From positions 1 through 64,000 of IMG/VR virus record IMGVR_UViG_3300032213_000542: a stretch of 64,000 bases of DNA; one strand, written 5' to 3'. The notes beneath the pieces are model-generated. The model did no database searches. It saw nothing but the letters and a program-made list of their open reading frames with translations, and was not told the DNA's origin. The position numbers and the translations under genes were made by a program. The DNA comes from a virus. Below are positions 16,468-46,876 of the stretch, piece by piece; the stretch's first letter is position 1; every line of letters begins with the position of its first letter.

Positions 16468-19400
16468 ATGGCAATCTACAGCGTACAAGGCCCTGACGGA
16501 CGTATTTACGATGTGGAGGGTCCCGAAGGCGCAGCCGAAGCTGATGTCATTGCTGCTGTTCAACGCCAGCTAGCGGTTGTTGAAAAACCGAAACCAAAAA
16601 CTGAAGAGCCTACCTTTGGCGGGCAAGTAAAAGAGTTTGCCAAAGGCATCATCCCCGGCGCTATCGGCATGGGCCAAACGGCCCTGACTGGTATCTCGGC
16701 ACTCCTCCCAGAAGAAACAGAGAAAAGCGCTCGGCAGTACATTGACCGTGGCGCTGCTGCGCTCAAGGCTCCGTTTGCTGCTGCCCCCGGCTACGAAGAA
16801 ACTGTTGGCCGCAAGTTTGGTGAATCTGTCGGTTCCATCGGGCCGTTAATTGCTATGGGCCCGTTGGGTGCCGCAGGCCGTGTTGGTATGACCGCACTTG
16901 CGGGTGGAGCCGGTGCTGGCGAGGCACGTCTTGGAGCCGAACAAGAAGGAGCTACTGCTGAACAGCGTGCAACCGCAACAGGCTTGGGCATCATCCCCGG
17001 TTTGGCCGAAGTGTTTGCGCCGATGCGAATCCTTAGCCGGTTGTCCGCGCCAATCCAAGCAGGCATCACGAACAGAATTCAACGTGCTTTGGTCGCCGGT
17101 GGCGAAGAAGCTGCACAAGAAGCCGCGTCACAGATTGCCCAGAACCTGATTGCCAAGGGCGTCTACAAACCAGATAAAGCCATCATTGATCAAGTTGGTG
17201 AGTCCGCCGCGTACGGCGGTGCTACGGGTGCTTTGGTGCAGGGCATTTTGGACATGGCCATCGGTCGCCGTGCTAAGTCAACTACGCAACCCCAAGGCCG
17301 ACCTGCCGAACAAAAACTCCAGACTCCAGTACCGGCACCAGAAACGGCTCCGATCGCTGAACCTACTGTTCGTGGTGAAGAGCCTGCGCTGGAAACGCCT
17401 GAAGAAATTGCTGCTGGCCCAACCAAAGCCGCACAACGCAAAGCACTGGCAGAACAAAACGCATATCTCAAACAGTACGAGAAGCTGCAAAAACAGCGTG
17501 AAGAACAAGCCGCAGAGTACGAGCGCATCAAAGCACTGACCCCTGAAGAATACGCGCTGGAGCAAATGCAGGGCCGCGGCAAAACGGTTAAGAACAAATA
17601 TGATCCCGCCGTCCAAGAGGCGCTCAACGCGCAGCTTGCCGAACTTGGCTACCAGAACGCACCAGCAGAAACAGTTAAGCCTGAAGTAGAGTACGCTGCC
17701 GCGCAAATGGCGCTGGTCAAAGACCGTGAGCTTCAGCCTAACCTGAATACATACGCTGATTACTTGTTGGCTGACCCACAGGCAGCAGCAAAGCTGGTGG
17801 CAAATAAGACACTGATCCCCGGTTTGCCTGAATCTCAGAGCTACGCGGTGTTGAACATTATGAGCAAGCGCTTGCAAAAGGCAGCGCAGGATGAAGCCGC
17901 CCAGACACAGCAACGCCAGACTGCCGCACAAGATCGTGCCCGTGGTTTGTTTGAGCAGCAAGGTCAAGACCAGACTTCTGACCTGTTGGCAGGTGCCCGT
18001 GAGCAAGTGGGCAACGCTGTTGTTCGTCCTGAGATTCAAGCGTTGCAGCGCATTGGCGCTCGTCCAAATCCTTTGCTGACTACCAACCGCGACATCGAGG
18101 CTAAGCGTGCCGAAGAAGAATTGATCGGTAAGTTAGTTGACACTCTCCCCCAAACTAACGGTCGTATTACGCCCGGCGATGTATACCTCGGCCTTGGTAC
18201 AAAGAAGCAAGACATGCGGGACTTGCAGGCGCAATTGGCTGTCGCTCGTTTGACCGGCAACAAAACTCTGCAAGCAGAAATAAAGCGCCAGCTTGATGCG
18301 CAGCGTGCTATTCCCACTGAAGGCGGCTTGGGCACCGAAGCCGGCAAGTACGCTGCTGAATTTATTAGCCGTAGCAAAGTTCCTGCACTGCGCGAAGGCG
18401 AAGCCGAAGGCGACAAGTTTGCTGCTGAACAGCGCAGCACGTTGTTGGGCATGGCCCGTCTGCTGAACTCTACGCAAATTATGTTGCCGGGTAAACGCGC
18501 AGCGTTGCTAAGCGAGGCCAAAGAAAAGTACGTGGCGCAGCACGCCGCAGAAATTGAAGCACGCCGAAAAGCGTTTGACTTGCCGCCTATGGCAGATTGG
18601 GAGCGAGCAGAAGCCCGTGCCCGTGCGCTTGAAGGACTGAACACGCTGACCAACAACTGGGGCACGTTTGAAGACCCTGTGATCAGCGTCAAAGCCTTAC
18701 AAAACATTACACGCGAGTCCGTGTACCAGAACTTGTACAAGGCAACCCAACGCCGCGCTGATACGGAGAAGCAAGACTTAGCCGAAAAAACAGGCACACC
18801 AGCGCAAAAGTATTTCTATGAAGATGCAGAAGGCAACCGCATCGAAGGCAAAGAGATGGAAGTCCCTCGTCAAACTGGTGCGCGTGTTGCCGCGCCTGAC
18901 GAACTGTCTTTAAAGAACCGCCCCAACATTGCCGCGACAGATGCCGATGCTGCTCAGCAGTTTATTGAGCAGGTGCTTAGCCAGATTGAAACCAAAGGCC
19001 GTAGCCGCGTTGAGCCAACCATTGAGAAAGCGCCTCCTAAGCAAGTCAGTGACATGGCATCGTTGGCACAGTTGTTCAAGAAAGCCGAGACCGGTGGTCG
19101 TACTGCTGAAATTGACGCGGCTACGATTGCTTTGTTGGAAAACTTGCGCGGTCAGTTGCGTACCAACACCGATCCTGAGTTTGTAAGTCTTGCACGCGAG
19201 ACCGCCCAGAAGGTTGCAGAAGGCAACCTGCCCAACGCATTTGATGTGCGTGATCTTGGCGAAATGATGAAGGCCCACGAAATTGCTGGCCGAAGCGAGA
19301 CCCGTCCCGGTGCTACCCCAGAGGAGCTGCAACGCACCAGCGCTCAGCCCCAGAAAGACTTGTTCCCTGAAGCTGCGGTGCAGATTCAACGTGCAAACCC

Positions 19401-22400
19401 TGCCAACTTCCAAAAGATGTTGGACTCCAAGAACATCCAAGGTATGCGCGATGCGCTGGCTAAGCAACGGGCCGACAACATTGCGGCATTGCAGGCAGCA
19501 GGCAAGGCACTCCCCACGCTTAAAAACAAACTGGCCAAAGCCGAAGAAAAATACAAGCGCACGCAAAAACGGGCGCAGGCTGCTGGCACTGAAGCGTCTG
19601 CTTATGTAACAGAGTACAAGACGGCGCTCGAAGACGCGCAGGATTTGGTTGTTGTCTTGCGTGACGAACTGGTGCTTTTGGAAAACCAACTCAAAGACGT
19701 TGAGTTGACAAAAGAAGTGTTGGCCAACGAGCCGACAGACATGCGTTTCTTGATCAACGCACCAACAATGTTGGCCACAGAAAAGCCCCTACGCAACAGC
19801 ATTAAGCTGATGGAGTTTGAGATTGCCAACGCTCAAAACCTTGTTGCATCCATTGAAGCCAGCTACCAAGCACAACAAACGCTGGTAGTTCCTGCCCAAA
19901 AGCGTGCGGAAAAAACTGCCAAAGAGCTGGAAGAGGCGCAAGCGGAATTGTCAACGGCTAAGAACGAAGCCAACGCCGCTGCCAAACGCGCCGAGCGTTT
20001 GGAGCAAGCCGACAAAGAAGCCAAGGCAAAAGCAGAAGCCGACATTGGTACGCCTAAAGAAGTTTTTAAAGCCTCGGCTCAAGCTGGCCGTGAAGGACTG
20101 AACCTGCCCGGCATCCGTCTGGAAAAAGACACAACGCGCATGAAGGAGACCATTGCCAACATGCGTCGCGCTATGGGTTCGCTAGACGAACAAATTGCCA
20201 ACGAAAAAGACGAGACCAAACTGGCTGATTTCAAAGCCCAACGCGCAGAGTACGAGCGCAAGTTGGAAACCGTCTACGCGGATGCCCCGTCCGTCAAAAC
20301 GGTGTTGCAGTCAAAGGCTTCCGAAAAAGCAGAGCAAGAGTACGAAGACGCGCAGAAGGCTGGCTTTGACCAAATGATGGCCAAGCGCCGCAAACGTGCT
20401 GGTGAAAAAGCGCCTCGCTTGGAAAAAATTGAGCAGGTGCCGGTCTATCGCTCCGCTAAAACTACGCGCATCGTGCAGCCATACCGCACTGCTCGGATTG
20501 CAGAAACAGCTTCGGCCATTACCGACAGGCTCATCACAGCGCGTAGTGACTTGACGGAAGTAAACCGTCGCATAGATTTCTTACGCGCCAACGGCAAAGA
20601 CAAGGTTAAGAACCGTTTGACCGACACGTTTAAAAAGCTGCAAGAGGAGCAGACCAAGCTCAAAGAACGTATTGATTCTTTGGACACTCGCCAAAAACGA
20701 ATTATTGCCCTTGAAAGCAAAGCCGAGTACGAGACCCCCCGCGCCAAAGAACTGCGTGAAGCACGGGAAGTGCAAGCAGAAAACGATCAGTTCAAGATGC
20801 GTGAGGCCAGCGAAGAATTCAACGCCCCCTCGTTAACCTTCGTGAAGAAAGACATTGCTGAAGCTGTGCGTGATGGCCGCATCTTGGATGCGCTTGATGG
20901 CATTGCCGAGACAGGCTCGACAGAGTTTGTTCGTAACTTGGCAGAGCGCCTGCGCCCGTTGTTGATGCGTACAAAGCTGCGTACCGAGCCGGGCTTTATG
21001 GTGGGCGGCAAGCAAGCCACTGGCGTGTACATGCCGAAGACAAACGAAATTGTCATCGACGACAACTACATCACGCAAGAAAACTTGATGCACGAGTTTG
21101 TGCACGCCGCGACTGACCGCGTACTGAACACGCCTGATGCTGACCTTACTCCTAGCCAGCGCAAAGCTAAGGCAGAGCTAAACGCATTGTTTGACCAAGT
21201 TAAAAACAACCCTGCGCTGGTCAAAGAGTACGGCTTGACGGACATCGACGAGTTTGCTTCTGAAGCTATGTCGAACGAAGTGTTCCAGAAAAAACTTGAG
21301 CAAATTAAGACTGAAGGTAAGTCCGGCTGGCAGCGCTTTAAAGAAGCAGTCATGCGTTTGTTCGGCGTGGACATTAGAAGCAATGCCTTTAAAGACGCCC
21401 AAGAAGCAATTGATCAGATTTTTATGCCATCCCGTAAGGCTGCTGGCACAGCTAAACCAGCCTTGTTCCGTCAAGAAGCAAAGGCTGCTGGCTTTGAGGA
21501 CGAGCTGAATACGGCGGCTGACATGATTGCGTCGCCCAAGACCGTGCGCGAAAAGGTTGAGGCCAACCTCGGCTTGGCGTTCCGTACGCAAGTGCTGGAC
21601 CGTTTGGCCCCCTTGGAAAAAGTAGCGAACGAACAGATGGACGCGTTCAAGGGTATGCAGATGATGTACTACCTGCGTATGGCTGACCAGAAGATGTCGT
21701 TTGTGCAGCAGTCTGTTGGCCGTGGTGTTCCTCAGTTGGTTGAGAAGCAACGCGCTGACGGCAAAGTCGAGCGCCTCATTGAAAGCCAGAACGGACCAAA
21801 CTTGGTTAACGTGGTGAACACCCTAAAAGAAGCGCCGGGCATGAACGCCCAAGCTGCGAACCAGTTGTTTACCCTGTACTTGGCGGCTAAGCGTGCTGAC
21901 CGTGTTGGCTACGATGTGCTGAACTTTGGTCAGTCCGAGGCCAAGATCAAGTCTGCTGTGTCCAAGATTGAGTCGAACGAAGAACTACGCAACGTGTTTG
22001 AAAAAGCACGCGAGCAGTACAACGACTACAACCGAGACTTAGTTAAGTTCTTGGAAGACACCGGCTCCATCACACCAGAAGAAGCCGCACGCTTGGCTAA
22101 GACCAACGACTACATCCCATACTACCGCGAACAAAACGGCAACGCCGTGCTGGTGATTGGCGGTGAGGGCACGTTCAAGGTCGGCAACCTGACTGACCAG
22201 CCACAGTTGCGCCAGCTTATTGGCGGCAACGAAAAGATTTTGGATTTCTTAACATCGAGCGTTCAGAACACATCCATGATCATGGACATGGGGCTACGTA
22301 ACCAAGCAGCCAAGAACGCGATGTTTGAGTTAGCTAACTTGGATATGGCGCAGTTCCTTGGTGGTTCGCCATCCGGCCCCGACATCGTGCGCTTTAAGGA

Positions 22401-23991
22401 CAAGGGCGTCGAGAAGTTTGTGCGTATCGACACCTCTGCTGCGGGCATCCCTGCCGATCTTTTGGTCAAGGGTATGGAAGGCATCCCTGTCAACAACTCC
22501 GCGATCGTCAAGGTCATGGGCGGGTTTGCTACGTTGCTGCGTCGCTCAATCACGGTCAGCCCGTTGTACTCTGCACGCCAAGTCTTCCGTGACTCGGTTG
22601 CTGCTCCTCTGTTGTCAGGTGCAAACTTTACCCCTGTGGTTGGAGCGCTCAAGCAGATCGGCAACTCCGCCACACGCGAGAAGTTGGAAGCCCGAGGCAT
22701 TGTTGGCGGTCAGATTTTGACTGGCACAAACGAAGACTTGACCCGCATTTTGGGCGAGCTGCAATCCGGCAAGATGGGTGTTGGCCAGTTCATTGCCAAG
22801 GCTGAAGCCCTAGCGATGGAAGCCGATGCGCTTACCCGCCGCGCTCAGTACGACTCGTACATCGAGCAGGGCTTGTCGGAGATGGAAGCCACCCTGATGT
22901 CGTTGGAGTCTATGAACTTTAACCGCAAGGGCCTTTCACCATCGGCACGGTTTGCGACTACCGTCATCCCGTTCTTCAACGCACAGTTGCAGAGTTTGGA
23001 CGTTTTGTACCGCTCCATGACAGGCAAGATGCCGATGAGCGAGCGTCTGGACATCCAAGGCAAACTGCTGCGCCGTGGCTCGTTGCTGGCCGGTACCGCC
23101 GTGGCTTACGCTTTGATGATGCAGGACGACGAGACCTACAAGAACGCCAACCCTGACGAGAAGTACAACAACTTCTTCGTGCATGTGCCCGGCATCAAGG
23201 AAGCCGTCCGTGTACCGATTCCATTTGAAATTGGTTACATCTTCAAGAGCTTGCCTGAAGCCATCGTCAATACGATGAACAGCGAGAAGGGCAGCGAAGA
23301 AGCGTACAAGGCGTTCAAGAACATCGCCATCCAGACTGTGCCCGGCGGCACATCCTTGTTCTTGCCTGCGGCGGTCAAGCCAATCGTGGAAGGCGTCACC
23401 AACTACTCGTTCTTTACGGGCCGTTCGTTGGAGACCAAGCGCGAGCAAATGCAGCAAGCTGAGTACCGCTACCGCGACAACACGTCGGAGCTTGCCAAGC
23501 AAGTTGGCGCAATGACAGGCACATCGCCCATCAAGATCGAAAACTTGATCCGAGGCTATACCGGCGGCATGGGCGTTGCGCTGGTGCAGTCGTTTAACTT
23601 TGCGATGCCGACCAATGGCACGCCAGAGCAAGCCGCAAAACGTCTGTCAGATGCAGCAGTGATTGGCCCGTTGTTCCAACCAGCAGACGCTGGCGGTATT
23701 GTTGGTGCTGTCTACGATCGCGTTTCAACTATTACTGAGACCAAGCGCACCTACGACAACTTGCTCAAATCTGGTCAACGTGCCGAGGCGATGGAGTTCT
23801 TGCAACGCAATATGGATGACTACGCTAAGTCCGCCATCGCTGGCAATGTGCAGCAGCAGTTGGGCAAGGTCACCCAAGCCATCAATGCGGTCAAAGCATC
23901 CAGCATGTCTCCTGAAGATAAGCGCGAAAGCCTTGACCGTTTACAGCAGTTGCGAATCAACCTTGCATCTAGTGTGCGCGGGGTACTCTAA
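16468..23991 (+). CDS. Giant polyvalent ejected protein with HExxH peptidase motif
   Basis: A 2,507-residue protein, the largest gene in the window. The N-terminus (~1-260) has Gly/Ala-rich membrane-like segments. Residues ~290-1500 are mostly charged coiled coil. HEFVH at 1542-1546 is a zinc-metallopeptidase motif. Residues ~1690-2110 carry the conserved tail region (around SPLYSARQVFRDS, ~2030) seen in large polyvalent proteins. Such proteins travel in the capsid and enter the host with the DNA; the peptidase may process itself or host targets. It is the last gene of the virion run and its 3' end overlaps the convergent gene. Confidence 0.8.
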   Translation: MAIYSVQGPDGRIYDVEGPEGAAEADVIAAVQRQLAVVEKPKPKTEEPTFGGQVKEFAKGIIPGAIGMGQTALTGISALLPEETEKSARQYIDRGAAALKAPFAAAPGYEETVGRKFGESVGSIGPLIAMGPLGAAGRVGMTALAGGAGAGEARLGAEQEGATAEQRATATGLGIIPGLAEVFAPMRILSRLSAPIQAGITNRIQRALVAGGEEAAQEAASQIAQNLIAKGVYKPDKAIIDQVGESAAYGGATGALVQGILDMAIGRRAKSTTQPQGRPAEQKLQTPVPAPETAPIAEPTVRGEEPALETPEEIAAGPTKAAQRKALAEQNAYLKQYEKLQKQREEQAAEYERIKALTPEEYALEQMQGRGKTVKNKYDPAVQEALNAQLAELGYQNAPAETVKPEVEYAAAQMALVKDRELQPNLNTYADYLLADPQAAAKLVANKTLIPGLPESQSYAVLNIMSKRLQKAAQDEAAQTQQRQTAAQDRARGLFEQQGQDQTSDLLAGAREQVGNAVVRPEIQALQRIGARPNPLLTTNRDIEAKRAEEELIGKLVDTLPQTNGRITPGDVYLGLGTKKQDMRDLQAQLAVARLTGNKTLQAEIKRQLDAQRAIPTEGGLGTEAGKYAAEFISRSKVPALREGEAEGDKFAAEQRSTLLGMARLLNSTQIMLPGKRAALLSEAKEKYVAQHAAEIEARRKAFDLPPMADWERAEARARALEGLNTLTNNWGTFEDPVISVKALQNITRESVYQNLYKATQRRADTEKQDLAEKTGTPAQKYFYEDAEGNRIEGKEMEVPRQTGARVAAPDELSLKNRPNIAATDADAAQQFIEQVLSQIETKGRSRVEPTIEKAPPKQVSDMASLAQLFKKAETGGRTAEIDAATIALLENLRGQLRTNTDPEFVSLARETAQKVAEGNLPNAFDVRDLGEMMKAHEIAGRSETRPGATPEELQRTSAQPQKDLFPEAAVQIQRANPANFQKMLDSKNIQGMRDALAKQRADNIAALQAAGKALPTLKNKLAKAEEKYKRTQKRAQAAGTEASAYVTEYKTALEDAQDLVVVLRDELVLLENQLKDVELTKEVLANEPTDMRFLINAPTMLATEKPLRNSIKLMEFEIANAQNLVASIEASYQAQQTLVVPAQKRAEKTAKELEEAQAELSTAKNEANAAAKRAERLEQADKEAKAKAEADIGTPKEVFKASAQAGREGLNLPGIRLEKDTTRMKETIANMRRAMGSLDEQIANEKDETKLADFKAQRAEYERKLETVYADAPSVKTVLQSKASEKAEQEYEDAQKAGFDQMMAKRRKRAGEKAPRLEKIEQVPVYRSAKTTRIVQPYRTARIAETASAITDRLITARSDLTEVNRRIDFLRANGKDKVKNRLTDTFKKLQEEQTKLKERIDSLDTRQKRIIALESKAEYETPRAKELREAREVQAENDQFKMREASEEFNAPSLTFVKKDIAEAVRDGRILDALDGIAETGSTEFVRNLAERLRPLLMRTKLRTEPGFMVGGKQATGVYMPKTNEIVIDDNYITQENLMHEFVHAATDRVLNTPDADLTPSQRKAKAELNALFDQVKNNPALVKEYGLTDIDEFASEAMSNEVFQKKLEQIKTEGKSGWQRFKEAVMRLFGVDIRSNAFKDAQEAIDQIFMPSRKAAGTAKPALFRQEAKAAGFEDELNTAADMIASPKTVREKVEANLGLAFRTQVLDRLAPLEKVANEQMDAFKGMQMMYYLRMADQKMSFVQQSVGRGVPQLVEKQRADGKVERLIESQNGPNLVNVVNTLKEAPGMNAQAANQLFTLYLAAKRADRVGYDVLNFGQSEAKIKSAVSKIESNEELRNVFEKAREQYNDYNRDLVKFLEDTGSITPEEAARLAKTNDYIPYYREQNGNAVLVIGGEGTFKVGNLTDQPQLRQLIGGNEKILDFLTSSVQNTSMIMDMGLRNQAAKNAMFELANLDMAQFLGGSPSGPDIVRFKDKGVEKFVRIDTSAAGIPADLLVKGMEGIPVNNSAIVKVMGGFATLLRRSITVSPLYSARQVFRDSVAAPLLSGANFTPVVGALKQIGNSATREKLEARGIVGGQILTGTNEDLTRILGELQSGKMGVGQFIAKAEALAMEADALTRRAQYDSYIEQGLSEMEATLMSLESMNFNRKGLSPSARFATTVIPFFNAQLQSLDVLYRSMTGKMPMSERLDIQGKLLRRGSLLAGTAVAYALMMQDDETYKNANPDEKYNNFFVHVPGIKEAVRVPIPFEIGYIFKSLPEAIVNTMNSEKGSEEAYKAFKNIAIQTVPGGTSLFLPAAVKPIVEGVTNYSFFTGRSLETKREQMQQAEYRYRDNTSELAKQVGAMTGTSPIKIENLIRGYTGGMGVALVQSFNFAMPTNGTPEQAAKRLSDAAVIGPLFQPADAGGIVGAVYDRVSTITETKRTYDNLLKSGQRAEAMEFLQRNMDDYAKSAIAGNVQQQLGKVTQAINAVKASSMSPEDKRESLDRLQQLRINLASSVRGVL

Positions 23992-28705: not shown

Positions 28706-29116
28706 TTACTTAGCTGAAGGTTTGCGTACCGAAATGTCATACTCCGCATTGGAGTTGAGGCCGGGCGGTACGACCCCGGGGTTTTCTTCAAGGAACTGCT
28801 TCATGTTGGTCTGCGCGATGCGCTTCTCAAACAAGTCCAGCGCGTCATGTTCCATGACGAAAGACTTGAAGCTGTCCCAATCGGATGTGGAGTAGCGCGT
28901 CTTGACAGACAGCACCACGGTGCCTTGGTCAGTGCGAACAGATGTCACGCCAAGCGCCTGCATCTGTTCCTTCATCGCGGCTGCGATCTCTGCTTGCTGA
29001 GCCTTGATAGTCTCGACTTCGGTGTCGTACTCACGGGTCAGTTCAGATACGCGGTCACGCATCTTACGGTAGATTTTGGCCAGCTTATCCAGCGGCACTA
29101 CGTCTTCTTTTTCCAT
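28706..29116 (-). CDS. Conserved-looking phage protein with N-terminal coiled coil
   Basis: A 136-residue protein. Residues ~5-55 form a coiled coil, followed by a compact domain (SVRTDQGTVVLSVKTRYSTSDW, then a helix, then a C-terminal beta segment). Proteins with this layout are widespread next to phage replication genes and remain uncharacterised. The start is preceded by TAGGAGAAGCAA, and a palindromic operator-like site lies 30 bp upstream. Confidence 0.7.
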   Translation of the reverse strand: MEKEDVVPLDKLAKIYRKMRDRVSELTREYDTEVETIKAQQAEIAAAMKEQMQALGVTSVRTDQGTVVLSVKTRYSTSDWDSFKSFVMEHDALDLFEKRIAQTNMKQFLEENPGVVPPGLNSNAEYDISVRKPSAK

Positions 29117-29145
29117 TTGCTTCTCCTATGAAGTGGTTTATTGTT

Positions 29146-29161
29146 TGTCTAAGGTTGGACA
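29146..29161. promoter_or_regulatory. Operator-like palindrome O1
   Basis: TGTCTAAGGTTGGACA is a near-perfect 16-bp palindrome in the 79-bp gap upstream of the leftward gene that starts at 29116. A GTGTACAC palindrome overlaps its right edge. It matches two other sites (at 39781 and 46606), both overlapping putative promoters. Confidence 0.5.
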
Positions 29162-29195
29162 GTGTACACACATTTTTAAATTTGTTTTGCTCCTT

Positions 29196-30758
29196 TCAAG
29201 ATTTAATTTCTGTATCAAACATTTGGGTTAACAGTGAGTGGTCACTAACTTTCATTTCTAATGCTTTAAACATCTTCTTCTCAATTGGCGACCCCTGAAT
29301 GTGGATGACGGTCACCTTGTCTGAGGTCTGCCCCTTGCGGTCAGCACGCGCACAACACTGCACATACTGCTCAACAGACATCAACGGGCCATAGAACACC
29401 ACGGTGTCAGCGGCTGTCAGGGTAATACCGTGAGCAGATGCTTGGGGCTGCATCACCAGCACGCGAGGGTCAGGCTCGTTCTGGAACCTGCGGATGATGT
29501 CCCCACGCTTGGATGCAGGCACGTCACCACGGATCATCTCGGCGCTGATACCTTTCTTCAACAGGTAGTTGTGGATGTTGTCGATGCTGCTGGTGAACAA
29601 CGCGAAGATGATGACCTTGCGTGAGGTCTCGTCCAAGATTTCCTCCAGTACCGACAAGCGAGGCGCGGCATCAAACTCAACCACCTCACCGCTCTCGGTG
29701 TAGGCAGCGCCGCAACTGATCTGCAACAACTTGGATACACCAGCGGCAGCGTTGACTGCGGTGATCGTCTCGCCTGCGGCTTGGATGAGCATACGTTCTT
29801 TGAGCAAGTCGTAGTACTTCTTTTGCTGCGGGGTCATCGGCACTTCGCGTGTCATCGTAATCACTGGTGGCAAGTCCAAGCACTCGGCCTTGGTGAAACG
29901 AATCGCTGGTTGCAACGCTTCATGTACGAGATCAGGTGCGTTGGACTTCGGTGCCCACTTGAACATCGTGATCTTGTTCATCACCTTGTCGCGCCATGCT
30001 GTGAAAAACTTGGGCACGTTGTTGGGGTTGACGAGCTTGGCCAGACCAAACGCATCAGCAGGTGACTGCGATGCAGGCGTACCAGTCATCATCCACAACA
30101 AGGTCTCAGGTTTGATGATGGAGTTCAACGACTTCCAGCGGCGTGTGGTGATGGTCTTGTATGCGTTCGCTTCGTCAACGATGATCAGATCGAACTTGCC
30201 GTTGGCCTTCACCTCGTCGGCTATCAGGTTCAAGCCTTCGTAGTTGGTGATGACAAACTCATAGTTCTTTTGAACCATCTCAATGCGACGCGATGCTTGT
30301 GGGTGGTGGGCGATGACCGCGCTGCGATGGATGATGGATGCGTTCAAGTCCTGCATCCACGCCGACTGCATGATCGACAAGGGGCACAGGATGAGAACAC
30401 GTCGCACCTCACCACGCGTCATCAGATAGTCAGCCGCCCACAGTGCAGAGAGTGTCTTACCAGTGCCGGGCTCGCTGAACACGAATGCTTTGCGATTGAG
30501 CGTTAGGAAAGATGCTGTCTGAACTTGGTGTGCCATTGGCTTGTGACGGCCCGGCCAGTTGTAGCGTCGTGTGATTGGTGAAGGGACATCCTTCACGCCT
30601 AAGTTTTTGAGTACACGGGCTTCGTCAAGTCCCCAGAAGACAGCAACTTCCGCAGAACCATCGGCGTATTGCTCGACGACTTTGCTGCGGGGGATGACGC
30701 TGTATTTTTCTGGGTTTCTTGTGCGAAGTAGTAGTGCCTTATCTTCGATTATTTCCAT
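29196..30758 (-). CDS. SNF2-type DEAD/DEAH helicase
   Basis: A 520-residue superfamily 2 helicase. Walker A SEPGTGKT is at 95-102; motif II reads DEAN (195-198) instead of DEAH/DEAD; TGTPxxxSP follows as motif III-like; the C-terminal lobe has QCCARADRKGQ (motif VI). SNF2-type enzymes move along double-stranded DNA or remodel bound proteins, so roles in replication, recombination or fork restart are likely. Start is behind GAGAAGCA. Confidence 0.88.
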   Translation of the reverse strand: MEIIEDKALLLRTRNPEKYSVIPRSKVVEQYADGSAEVAVFWGLDEARVLKNLGVKDVPSPITRRYNWPGRHKPMAHQVQTASFLTLNRKAFVFSEPGTGKTLSALWAADYLMTRGEVRRVLILCPLSIMQSAWMQDLNASIIHRSAVIAHHPQASRRIEMVQKNYEFVITNYEGLNLIADEVKANGKFDLIIVDEANAYKTITTRRWKSLNSIIKPETLLWMMTGTPASQSPADAFGLAKLVNPNNVPKFFTAWRDKVMNKITMFKWAPKSNAPDLVHEALQPAIRFTKAECLDLPPVITMTREVPMTPQQKKYYDLLKERMLIQAAGETITAVNAAAGVSKLLQISCGAAYTESGEVVEFDAAPRLSVLEEILDETSRKVIIFALFTSSIDNIHNYLLKKGISAEMIRGDVPASKRGDIIRRFQNEPDPRVLVMQPQASAHGITLTAADTVVFYGPLMSVEQYVQCCARADRKGQTSDKVTVIHIQGSPIEKKMFKALEMKVSDHSLLTQMFDTEIKS

Positions 30759-30771
30759 TGCTTCTCACTTG

Positions 30772-31015: not shown

Positions 31016-31681
31016 TCAATGCTTTTTGTGAAACTCACAGCCAGTGCATGGGCACCAGCCGCAGAGCGGGGTACGGGTTGGGTTCCATACATCGTTGTCG
31101 ATGCAGGATGCGATACGGCTGACGCGCTCACGATACTTCCACCATTCGGCATCCATTTCGTCAACGTTCATGCTGTGCTTAACCATATCATTCTTGACCA
31201 CAAAGAGCAACGCGGAGTTGACCTTGCGGATGTGCGGGAAGTGTTTGAACACCATGATGGACATGAGGCGCAACTGATCACGGTCAGGGTACTTGTTGTT
31301 GCCCGTCTTGTAGTCCACCACCCATGCTGTCAGGTTGTCGTCATCAATGATGAGCAAGTCGGCAACGCCCCTTACCCATGCGTCTTTGGCGAACCATTCA
31401 GTAGGCGTGAGGTCTTCACGCAACGTCATCTTGTACTCGGCCAGCTTACGACCGGGCTTCTTGATGAGCGCATCAAGCGTCTCTTGGATGTATTCAAATT
31501 GCTTGGGCAGGGGTGTGCCGTCAGCTACGTAGAGTTCGGCTGCTTTGTGTAGCTCGTTGCCGTAGCGCGTAGCCTCGGTCTCCACGAACGGATACATCTT
31601 CAGAATCTTTACCTGATGGTAGCGACGAGCGCAACCTTCAAAGTCTTTCAAGGAGCTGTGGCTCCACGTTACCTTGGCCAT
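31016..31681 (-). CDS. PD-(D/E)XK exonuclease, RecB/Cas4-like
   Basis: A 221-residue protein. The active-site pattern is GVADLL (Asp108) and VDYKTG (Asp123, Lys125). The N-terminal Cys17 (SxSSLKDFEGCARRYH) plus the C-terminal CGWCPCTGC cluster match the four-Cys iron-sulphur arrangement of Cas4/AddB-like nucleases. It probably resects DNA ends during replication-linked recombination. It starts in a TAATG overlap with the upstream metalloprotease-like gene. Confidence 0.85.
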   Translation of the reverse strand: MAKVTWSHSSLKDFEGCARRYHQVKILKMYPFVETEATRYGNELHKAAELYVADGTPLPKQFEYIQETLDALIKKPGRKLAEYKMTLREDLTPTEWFAKDAWVRGVADLLIIDDDNLTAWVVDYKTGNNKYPDRDQLRLMSIMVFKHFPHIRKVNSALLFVVKNDMVKHSMNVDEMDAEWWKYRERVSRIASCIDNDVWNPTRTPLCGWCPCTGCEFHKKH

Positions 31682-31983
31682 TAAAACCTCGCAGTCTGGA
31701 TTGCTTTGGTCAGTCGGTTGGCAAAGCCAGTGACAAACTTCTCGTCGTTGTTCAGGTCGTGCATCCCCATGTCGGCAAGGATGGCGTGCGTCAGCTCGTG
31801 CCAGAACGTATCTTCTACGTCCGTGATCTTGAACTTGCGACCTGTGACGTTGCTGCGCTGGCCGATGGTGATGCGCTTGCGGTCATGGTTCACATCCCCC
31901 ATGCGCCCGCGCTGGGCCATAGCCTCAACGATCTCAACCGAGTAGTGCTTGTTGCCCACTCGTACTTTACGTGGTAGTTTCAT
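31681..31983 (-). CDS. SprT-like zinc metallopeptidase-fold protein
   Basis: A 100-residue protein with HELTH (62-66) followed by an acidic helix, the zincin motif seen in SprT/Spartan-like and ImmA-like proteins. There is no C-terminal zinc ribbon, so this is a minimal version. Spartan-type enzymes cut proteins crosslinked to DNA; that role would fit the replication context but is inference. Start behind GGAGAAAGCAA. Confidence 0.7.
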   Translation of the reverse strand: MKLPRKVRVGNKHYSVEIVEAMAQRGRMGDVNHDRKRITIGQRSNVTGRKFKITDVEDTFWHELTHAILADMGMHDLNNDEKFVTGFANRLTKAIQTARF

Positions 31984-32143
31984 TTGCTTTCTCCTTTGGT
32001 CCGTTAAATAGCGCCATGCCCAGTTGACCTAGCATCACTGCTTTCAACTCCTCACGTTCTTCTTCTGGGTATTCGGCAGCAACCTCGTCCATGATTTTCA
32101 TGATGCTTGCCGCTACGTCTTTGGCTGGAATTATTTTGCTCAT
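31967..32143 (-). CDS. Small helical hypothetical protein
   Basis: A 58-residue protein. ATG 32143 is preferred because AAGGAGAAGCG directly precedes it and it overlaps the upstream stop (ATGA); a longer frame lacks such a site. It is a single helical domain rich in Glu/Lys/Met. Function unknown. Confidence 0.6.
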   Translation of the reverse strand: MSKIIPAKDVAASIMKIMDEVAAEYPEEEREELKAVMLGQLGMALFNGPKEKANETTT

Positions 32144-32370
32144 CGCTTCTCCTTCTGCTGTGTGCACATTGCTCTCAACACATCTTCTACCGGAATACCG
32201 GCCCCGCTCCCCGTCCACGAATCCCACATGGCCAGTCGTTTCTGGTTAATGGTCAGGTCACCATCAGGGCTGTCCCGCAACAACTCCCCCATCTCACGGC
32301 AACTTGCTGTGAAAGTTTTTGGGGCCTCTTGGTCGGGGCATATCGTGTATGTGTAAGGTAATTTAGCCAT
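32140..32370 (-). CDS. Small hypothetical protein
   Basis: A 76-residue protein with a beta N-terminus (LPYTYTICPDQ) and a helical C-terminus. It sits 10 bp downstream of the polymerase and overlaps the next gene by 4 bp. No family recognised. Confidence 0.6.
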   Translation of the reverse strand: MAKLPYTYTICPDQEAPKTFTASCREMGELLRDSPDGDLTINQKRLAMWDSWTGSGAGIPVEDVLRAMCTQQKEKR

Positions 32371-39768: not shown

Positions 39769-39800
39769 AGTATAGCAACTTGTCCAACGCTGGACAAGTT
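39769..39800 (-). promoter_or_regulatory. Leftward promoter overlapped by operator palindrome O2
   Basis: On the minus strand TTGTCC (39797-39792) and TATACT (39774-39769) are 17 bp apart, a good sigma-70-type promoter. A perfect inverted repeat with 10-bp arms (AACTTGTCCA / TGGACAAGTT, 39777-39800) covers the -35 and spacer, as a repressor operator would. The core TGTCCAACGCTGGACA matches O1 and O3. Confidence 0.6.
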
Positions 39801-46407: not shown

Positions 46408-46581
46408 CGAGGGTACATCCGAAGCATTACTGGGCGGCGTTGCGGTGTTGAAAACTGAGAACTATTGACCCCACCCTAGGGGCATCCCCCGATATTGGCG
46501 GACCGCGGTGGCCATGACGTGAACACTGTTCCGTAACCATCTTCACAATTTCTGTAATTCTTTATACCTACCCCAAAAATT

Positions 46582-46621
46582 TTTATAAAAATTTCCAAGA
46601 AACCTTGTCTAACGTTGTACA
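46582..46621 (-). promoter_or_regulatory. Second leftward promoter with operator palindrome O3
   Basis: On the minus strand TAGACA (46611-46606) and TATAAA (46587-46582) are 18 bp apart. The imperfect palindrome TGTCTAACGTTGTACA (46606-46621) covers the -35. The core resembles O1 and O2, suggesting common control. Confidence 0.5.
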
Positions 46622-46716
46622 CTGTGGGGACTTGGCCGGTGTTGCTCTGCGGCGCTGTCAAGAAGCCCGTGACGATTCGGGACCAAAGCATCCGGGGGAG
46701 GGCGACCCGGAGCCAA

Positions 46717-46749
46717 ATAAAAAAACCCCAGCCATTGCTGACTGGGGTT
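46717..46749 (-). terminator. Intrinsic terminator, leftward
   Basis: The minus strand has an 8-bp stem AACCCCAG/CTGGGGTT with a 10-base loop followed by TTTTTATT. It is a textbook rho-independent terminator. No coding gene is read leftward into it, so it must end a short transcript that begins between here and 46.9 kb, or insulate the early promoters. Confidence 0.75.
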
Positions 46750-46840
46750 GAAAGAAGGCCGGAGCCCCCATAGGAGAAGCAATGGAGCGACAGCTCCTTT
46801 GGCCAGAGGCCAAAGGTGGCAACTGCTTGCACCACTACCG
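46717..46840 (-). ncRNA. Candidate structured small RNA
   Basis: A leftward transcript from the putative promoter at 46847-46876 would be about 120 nt. It would contain a GGTGCAA/TTGCCACC hairpin (near 46815-46833), a 9-bp CCTTTGGCC/GGCCAAAGG hairpin (46796-46816), a GGAGC/GCTCC hairpin (46784-46797), a single-stranded-like stretch reading CCATTGCTTCTCCTATG (46769-46785) and the terminator. That stretch is complementary to ribosome binding sites of the early operon. It could instead be the antisense of a small plus-strand ORF. Confidence 0.4.
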
Positions 46841-46871
46841 GAAGTTAGTGTACACTGACAGCATCGGGTAA
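46782..46871 (+). CDS. Possible 29-residue leader ORF
   Basis: ATG 46782 is preceded by TAGGAGAAGCA, the operon-typical binding site; the frame ends at TAA 46871, 25 bp before the terminase small subunit. It would need a promoter upstream of 46782, which I could not find, and it lies across the strong hairpins. A competing explanation of the same bases is the leftward small RNA. Confidence 0.3.
   Translation: MERQLLWPEAKGGNCLHHYRKLVYTDSIG
46827..46856 (+). promoter_or_regulatory. Putative rightward late promoter
   Basis: TTGCAC (46827-46832) and TACACT (46851-46856) lie 18 bp apart, ~45 bp before the terminase small subunit start. The -10 is half of the palindrome AGTGTACACT (46847-46856), which also supplies TACACT for the opposite strand. 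Confidence 0.4.
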
Positions 46872-46876
46872 CGCAA
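46847..46876 (-). promoter_or_regulatory. Putative divergent leftward promoter
   Basis: On the minus strand TTGCGT (46876-46871) and TACACT (46852-46847) are 18 bp apart and share the AGTGTACACT palindrome with the rightward promoter. Transcription would run into the terminator at 46749-46717. Confidence 0.35.

Follow-up and report, generated by a model that had tools for sequence, protein, structure and literature searches.

Several described groups of small RNAs (sRNAs) resemble the RNA considered here. The betaproteobacterial "toxic" sRNAs of the RF02278 type are short, expose a CU-rich segment directed against ribosome binding sites (anti-RBS), carry a hairpin and a U-tailed terminator, and pair at the RBSs of many mRNAs (PMC11722255, PMC5688073, PMC4603805). 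Bordetella S17 is an Hfq-dependent regulator (PMC11722255), and the Burkholderia RNAs (bdhR1/ncS27) are double-hairpin RNAs (PMC5688073). The streptococcal csRNAs consist of two stem-loops with a stretch complementary to the Shine-Dalgarno (SD) sequence and the start codon, and they end at a terminator (PMC4438229). They are encoded on the chromosome, transcribed from CiaR-dependent promoters, marked by the conserved nonamer [A/C]UCCUAAA[A/C], and present a CCUCCU motif in a loop. The alphaproteobacterial NfeR1/ar14 ("cuckoo") sRNAs, which belong to bacterial chromosomes, act in trans, expose anti-SD motifs (three CCUCCUCCC motifs) and have stems of variable sequence (PMC10746234).

Phages also encode RNAs that silence phage genes, such as OOP of lambda, sar of P22 and c4 of P1/P7, the last of which acts at an RBS (PMC12197685). 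These are single-locus antisense RNAs of temperate phages. Bacterial bidirectional promoters drive divergent starts from one symmetric -10 element, with 23 bp among the common start spacings (PMC12825309).

The locus compared with these systems lies in an uncultured virus record of 65,965 bases, of which 64,000 were analysed (the window, to which all coordinates refer). Its predicted product shares the short length, the exposed CU-rich segment, the hairpin and the U-tailed terminator with the RF02278-type sRNAs, but it has an additional 5' hairpin and is phage-encoded. By analogy, a similar mode of action is plausible. RF02278 itself scores 24.3 bits in the window and 28.4 bits in the relative L071, against a gathering cut-off of 50, and the same search gives sub-cut-off matches in 11 of 14 control genomes as well. 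No Rfam 15 family reaches its gathering score anywhere in the window, and no description of this RNA was found among the open-licence papers searched. The likeness to the csRNAs is one of architecture, the only level on which they were compared, and the likeness to NfeR1/ar14 lies in the (here predicted) trans action, the exposed anti-SD motif and the variable stems. Like OOP, sar and c4, the RNA is phage-encoded and predicted to repress phage genes; unlike them, it seems to target several distant early genes at once. We rate it as a new RNA family and a variant of the anti-SD sRNAs.

Genomic setting and relatives

The leftward genes of the window (24132-46427) include those for a primase/helicase-like protein, a DNA polymerase, an SNF2 helicase, an exonuclease and an endonuclease VII. 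The rightward genes, from 46897 on, include a putative small terminase gene (terS, start 46897) and the large terminase, portal and capsid genes. Judged by this gene content, the leftward genes are taken as early and the rightward genes as late. The RNA locus lies between the leftward replication genes and the rightward late genes.

Relatives were gathered by TerL; 80 sequences of 77-89% identity were retrieved out of at least 600 matches. Genes were called in 28 genomes or large contigs, 22 of them RNA-bearing and six belonging to an RNA-less clade, with gene starts taken from an in-house caller whose score favours SD motifs (GGAG, without credit for the GC extension). Three of these six (G005, G054, G056) contain the terminase region with no RNA at the expected place, and three without a terminase region (G049, G052, G053) were assigned to the clade by their SNF2 sequence. 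A search for hosts gave four distant matches in metagenome-assembled genomes (MAGs) of mixed taxonomy. In the TerL regions of five of the isolate phages nearest by TerL, the covariance model described below has no match at E 0.1, and blastn against isolate phages returned nothing useful.

Structure and conservation of the small RNA

The predicted RNA (46718-46840, minus strand, about 123 nt) starts at 46840, 7 nt past its -10 element, and has its 3' end in a T-run, so that it ends in a U-rich tail. The predicted fold runs from hairpin 1 (the 5' stem, 46778-46839, minus) through a single-stranded UUCUCC linker and hairpin 2 (GGGGGCUCCGGCCUUC, 46754-46769, minus) to hairpin 3, which together with a U-run forms the intrinsic terminator (46717-46749, minus); its stem of 11 pairs extends from 46749 to 46724 and is followed by TTTTTATTTG. 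The seed UUGCUUCUCCUA (46771-46782, minus), an anti-SD segment complementary to early start regions, is the most conserved segment of the RNA, and the conserved UUGC preceding UUCUCC sits in the 3' arm of hairpin 1. In the window, hairpin 1 is enlarged by a GGCC hairpin (46796-46816), a perfect 9-bp stem of CCTTTGGCC and GGCCAAAGG around AGA, and has CAUUGC in its 3' arm; a GGAGC..GCTCC hairpin lies at 46784-46797. The hairpins, the 9-bp stem and the leftward terminator had been listed in a first-pass annotation of the sequence, and all of them stand in the sequence where it had put them.

At the tip of hairpin 1, the perfect GGCC hairpin forms an accessory insertion. It recurs at the same place, with different loops, in a minority of relatives (L006, L010, L015, L027 and L037, with a variant in L003).

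The covariance search that the annotation had proposed was carried out with a model, R1, built from ten relatives with the window excluded. R1 gives a single match in the window (46716-46840, minus, 41.8 bits, E 4.8e-10) and matches 63 of the 73 terminase-linked loci searched around terS (window counted), where the RNA is leftward and 75-125 nt long. Among 60 distinct sequences, 18 of 19 pairs show two-sided changes, including 8/8 model pairs of hairpin 1 and 5/5 of hairpin 2, and standard pairs fill 95.4% of the pair cells, as opposed to 43-53% with slid partners. A first MAFFT alignment of all RNAs had misaligned hairpin 1. Because the alignment used for covariation was fitted to the structure, hairpin 1 was also tested with free offsets against shuffled partners: its arms match their own partner with a mean run of 7.76, the mean over 1000 shuffles being 6.14 and the maximum 6.91.

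In the relatives, terminators of other sequence stand at the same place, and a simple parser detects a leftward one in 56 of 71 loci. The order of elements upstream of terS recurs too: an early promoter with an AT-rich -10, the leftward terminator, and face-to-face promoters with a common palindromic -10. Comparison thereby supports what the annotation had suggested for one genome: the large majority of relatives keep a predicted leftward RNA, about 120 nt long, which codes for no protein, ends at a terminator, contains an anti-RBS segment and has stems that covary. As is typical of a trans-acting sRNA, it has a predicted promoter and a predicted terminator of its own, no conserved open reading frame (ORF), and a structure whose conservation appears both in the covariation and in the separate arm test.

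One clade has lost the RNA (e.g. L052, L055, L066). In this clade (also L060, L063, L072 and L074), the late promoter lies so near terS that the late mRNA would have almost no leader.

A predicted promoter shared with the late operon

The palindromic -10 element AGTGTACACT at 46847-46856 is common to two predicted promoters. The leftward promoter of the small RNA (46847-46876, minus) has the -35 element TTGCGT (46876-46871), 18 bp spacing and the -10 element TACACT (46852-46847). The rightward late promoter (46827-46856, plus) combines TTGCAC (46827-46832) with TACACT (46851-46856), again over 18 bp, and has its predicted start at 46863. A generic sigma-70 scan reported no promoter in the interval, and both were recognised through conservation. 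Of 34 distinct relatives, 28 have the leftward TTG spaced at exactly 17 nt, even though the remaining hexamer positions vary, and 27 have the rightward TTG at 18 nt. The back-to-back promoter-like elements around AGTGTACACT noticed in the first-pass annotation are both in place.

The predicted starts, 46840 and 46863, are 23 bp apart, and almost every relative in which both promoters were called has the same offset. A symmetric -10 in common and divergent starts about 10, 18 or 23 bp apart characterise bacterial bidirectional promoters. What sets the promoter predicted here apart is that one of its products would be a conserved RNA regulator directed at the genes of the opposite class. In the short forms, the GCAA loop of hairpin 1 is the complement of the TTGC in the -35 of the late promoter, so that the RNA is written into that promoter. 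Since the promoter core is common with the late operon, synthesis of the RNA probably coincides with late promoter activity or else competes with it.

Just past the terminator lies a predicted leftward early promoter (46582-46611, minus; -35 TAGACA at 46611-46606, -10 TATAAA at 46587-46582), the most widely conserved block upstream of terS. A box resembling a palindrome (TGTCTAACGTTGTACA, 46606-46621) accompanies it. Palindromes of 16 bp similar to TGTCTAACGTTAGACA occur at 46606-46621, 29146-29161 and 39781-39796, with four sites at three mismatches or fewer where 0.27 are expected. These sites include the early promoter and a position upstream of gene 29116, the latter recurring in many relatives, and the palindrome is reminiscent of an operator bound by a phage regulator. 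Beside the box upstream of gene 29116, GTGTACACTG at 29160-29169 (minus) shows the same -10-like palindrome as at 46847 and possibly marks an internal early promoter. Most relatives share a second conserved block (46518-46570, GTGAACACTGTTCC...TAACC), placed after the early promoter and ahead of the first early gene.

Predicted targets and coevolution with the seed

Read on the plus strand, the complementary stretch is TAGGAGAAGCAATGG, a plain SD with a start codon. Its likeness to other gene starts might thus be trivial, and this was tested first.

In the window, TTGCTTCTCCTATG of the leftward RNA is complementary to an unbroken run of 14 bases where gene 29116 starts, and TCCATTGCTTCTC to one of 13 bases where the SNF2 gene 30758 starts. 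Both complementarities had been claimed before and were confirmed in the sequence. The corresponding predicted targets are the start of gene 28706-29116 (CATAGGAGAAGCAAAUG, 29113-29130, minus), whose product is Pam3 gp33-like with a Pfam score just under the cut-off, and the start of the SNF2 helicase gene 29196-30758 (UGAGAAGCAAUGGA, 30754-30767, minus), whose SD is weak by 16S pairing. A third, the start of gene 31681-31983 (AAGGAGAAAGCAAAUG, 31981-31996, minus), has the best binding energy of the window, and the start of gene 31967-32143 (AAGGAGAAGCGAUG, 32141-32155, minus; 9-nt complementarity, -11.8 kcal/mol) is a possible further target. In target prediction against the early mRNAs, another check the annotation had named, orthologs of 29116 are among the top five targets in 12 of 21 genomes, those of SNF2 in 11 of 22 and those of 31983 in 13 of 18. 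Several relatives do not have SNF2 among their predicted targets, and the fit is poorer for the seeds of G002, G003 and G058.

The window by itself shows only a weak contrast between early and late genes. Its start regions contain GGAGAA(A)GC in 4/42 early and 3/49 late cases, the p value for the difference in whole-RNA binding energy is 0.07-0.09, and late genes supply two of the three start regions with the best scores. TAAGGA serves as the SD in 13/49 late and 4/42 early start regions of the window, a class distinct from the early GGAG.

Across the RNA-bearing genomes, complementarity of at least 9 nt to the seed region of the genome's own RNA is found in 151 of 816 early but only 9 of 657 late start regions; in about 80% of early genes, strong complementarity is absent. 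In these genomes, GGAGAA(A)GC is present in 99/816 start regions of early genes and 11/657 of late genes; in the RNA-less clade, the early figure is 1/149. Where GGAG is present, AAGC or AAAG comes next at 110/511 early starts, 12/174 late starts and 1/64 early starts of the RNA-less clade. Early and late SDs differ in strength generally, the RNA-less clade included. Genomes with the seed GCUUCUCC prefer GGAGAAGC in their early start regions and those with GCUUUCUCC prefer GGAGAAAGC (42/13 vs 4/30). The P values for GGAGAA(A)GC (4e-16 early vs late, 6e-7 RNA-less vs RNA-bearing early) and for the seed preference (1.5e-9) are too small, because related genomes are not independent; the events are two seed changes and one loss. 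On the SNF2 tree, two origins of the GCUUUCUCC seed and one loss of the RNA are required, and the early SDs changed alongside.

The genome's own RNA also beats the RNAs of other genomes on ortholog start regions (permutation p 0.0016 for 29116, 5e-5 for SNF2 and 0.006 for 31983). Measured by RNA pairing, the orthologs of all three are among the higher-ranking early genes. Two of them rank as ordinary or weak by pairing with the 16S tail (mean percentile 0.56 for 29116 and 0.73 for SNF2), which argues against a mere RBS style. Motif counts, seed changes and the own-RNA test thus indicate by comparison that the seed coevolves with early gene starts, including those of 29116 and SNF2, as would be expected of a trans-acting sRNA.

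Proposed mode of action and alternative readings

We hold with good confidence that the interval encodes a trans-acting phage small RNA that masks early RBSs, and we infer its transcription, the repression by pairing and the timing from the features above. A sigma-70-type promoter with a palindromic -10 would fire both ways, producing the late mRNA rightward and the RNA of about 123 nt leftward. The latter would stop at its own terminator just ahead of the early promoter and present the anti-SD segment (UUGCUUCUCC) between two hairpins. This segment would pair in trans with the GGAGAA(A)GC-type RBSs of several early leftward mRNAs, chiefly those of gene 29116, the SNF2 helicase gene 30758 and gene 31983, and block their translation. 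Acting when the late promoter fires, the RNA would aid the early-to-late shift; it probably helps to turn some early genes down.

An unlikely alternative is that the RNA is real but mainly targets host mRNAs, mimicking host anti-SD sRNAs of the betaproteobacterial RF02278/S17 group, with the phage matches being secondary. The best weak Rfam matches, RF02278 and anti-hemB, are both betaproteobacterial sRNAs, UUCUCC would suit many host SDs, and a betaproteobacterial MAG contains one distant TerL relative. However, the early starts of the phages track the seed changes and the RNA-less clade has lost the matching sites, observations still compatible with additional host targets.

Far less probable is a cis-acting leader, in which another leftward early promoter would be coupled to an attenuator, and bypass of the terminator would carry transcription into the early operon. 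The terminator does lie directly upstream of the early promoter and in the same direction, but a strong early promoter follows it, and an attenuator leaves the coevolution with distant start regions unexplained. The switch between CCATTGC and GCAATGG in the terminator loop, suggested in the first-pass annotation, would suit such a leader; it pairs in the window but not across relatives (mean run 4.40, shuffled 4.36) and was rejected.

It is equally hard to credit a rightward reading, in which TAGGAGAAGCAATG is the RBS of a leader peptide or of a longer terminase protein in the usual RBS style of the phage, and the leftward terminator merely shields the early promoter from antisense transcription. 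In most relatives, the plus strand does present a good SD together with an ATG, and every genome has its own RBS style. Yet the ORF ranges from 9 to 40 codons in differing frames and lacks a start codon in nine relatives, the late promoter lies inside it, with the -10 and the start downstream of the SD-like sequence, the stems covary, and the 29116 and SNF2 starts match the RNA despite their ordinary or weak 16S pairing. A conserved rightward ORF at 46782-46871 was rejected, as its length, frame and start codon are not conserved, and an mRNA translating it, the outcome that would have spoken against the original proposal, is disfavoured.

An N4-like hairpin promoter for a virion RNA polymerase was dismissed, since the polymerase match is weak (a 2507-aa late protein at 16468-23991 with a Pfam LPD38 domain, matching virion RNA polymerase PHROG 2206 at E 3e-4 and giving no credible PDB match) and the GGCC hairpin is present here in a minority of relatives.

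Implications for the carrier phages

The carrier phages form a large uncultured group, with at least 600 TerL matches. The phage regulatory RNAs compared here mostly act on a single locus, whereas the small RNA proposed to mask early RBSs appears to address several early genes through their SDs and is physically tied to the late promoter. A wider reading, to which we give slightly less than even credence, starts from the two RBS classes, early GGAGAA(A)GC and late often UAAGGA: the RNA made by the late promoter firing backwards would silence the early class, and one symmetric promoter would hold a translational early-to-late switch. The RNA-less clade and the two seed changes provide a natural experiment on the coevolution of RBSs and a regulatory RNA.
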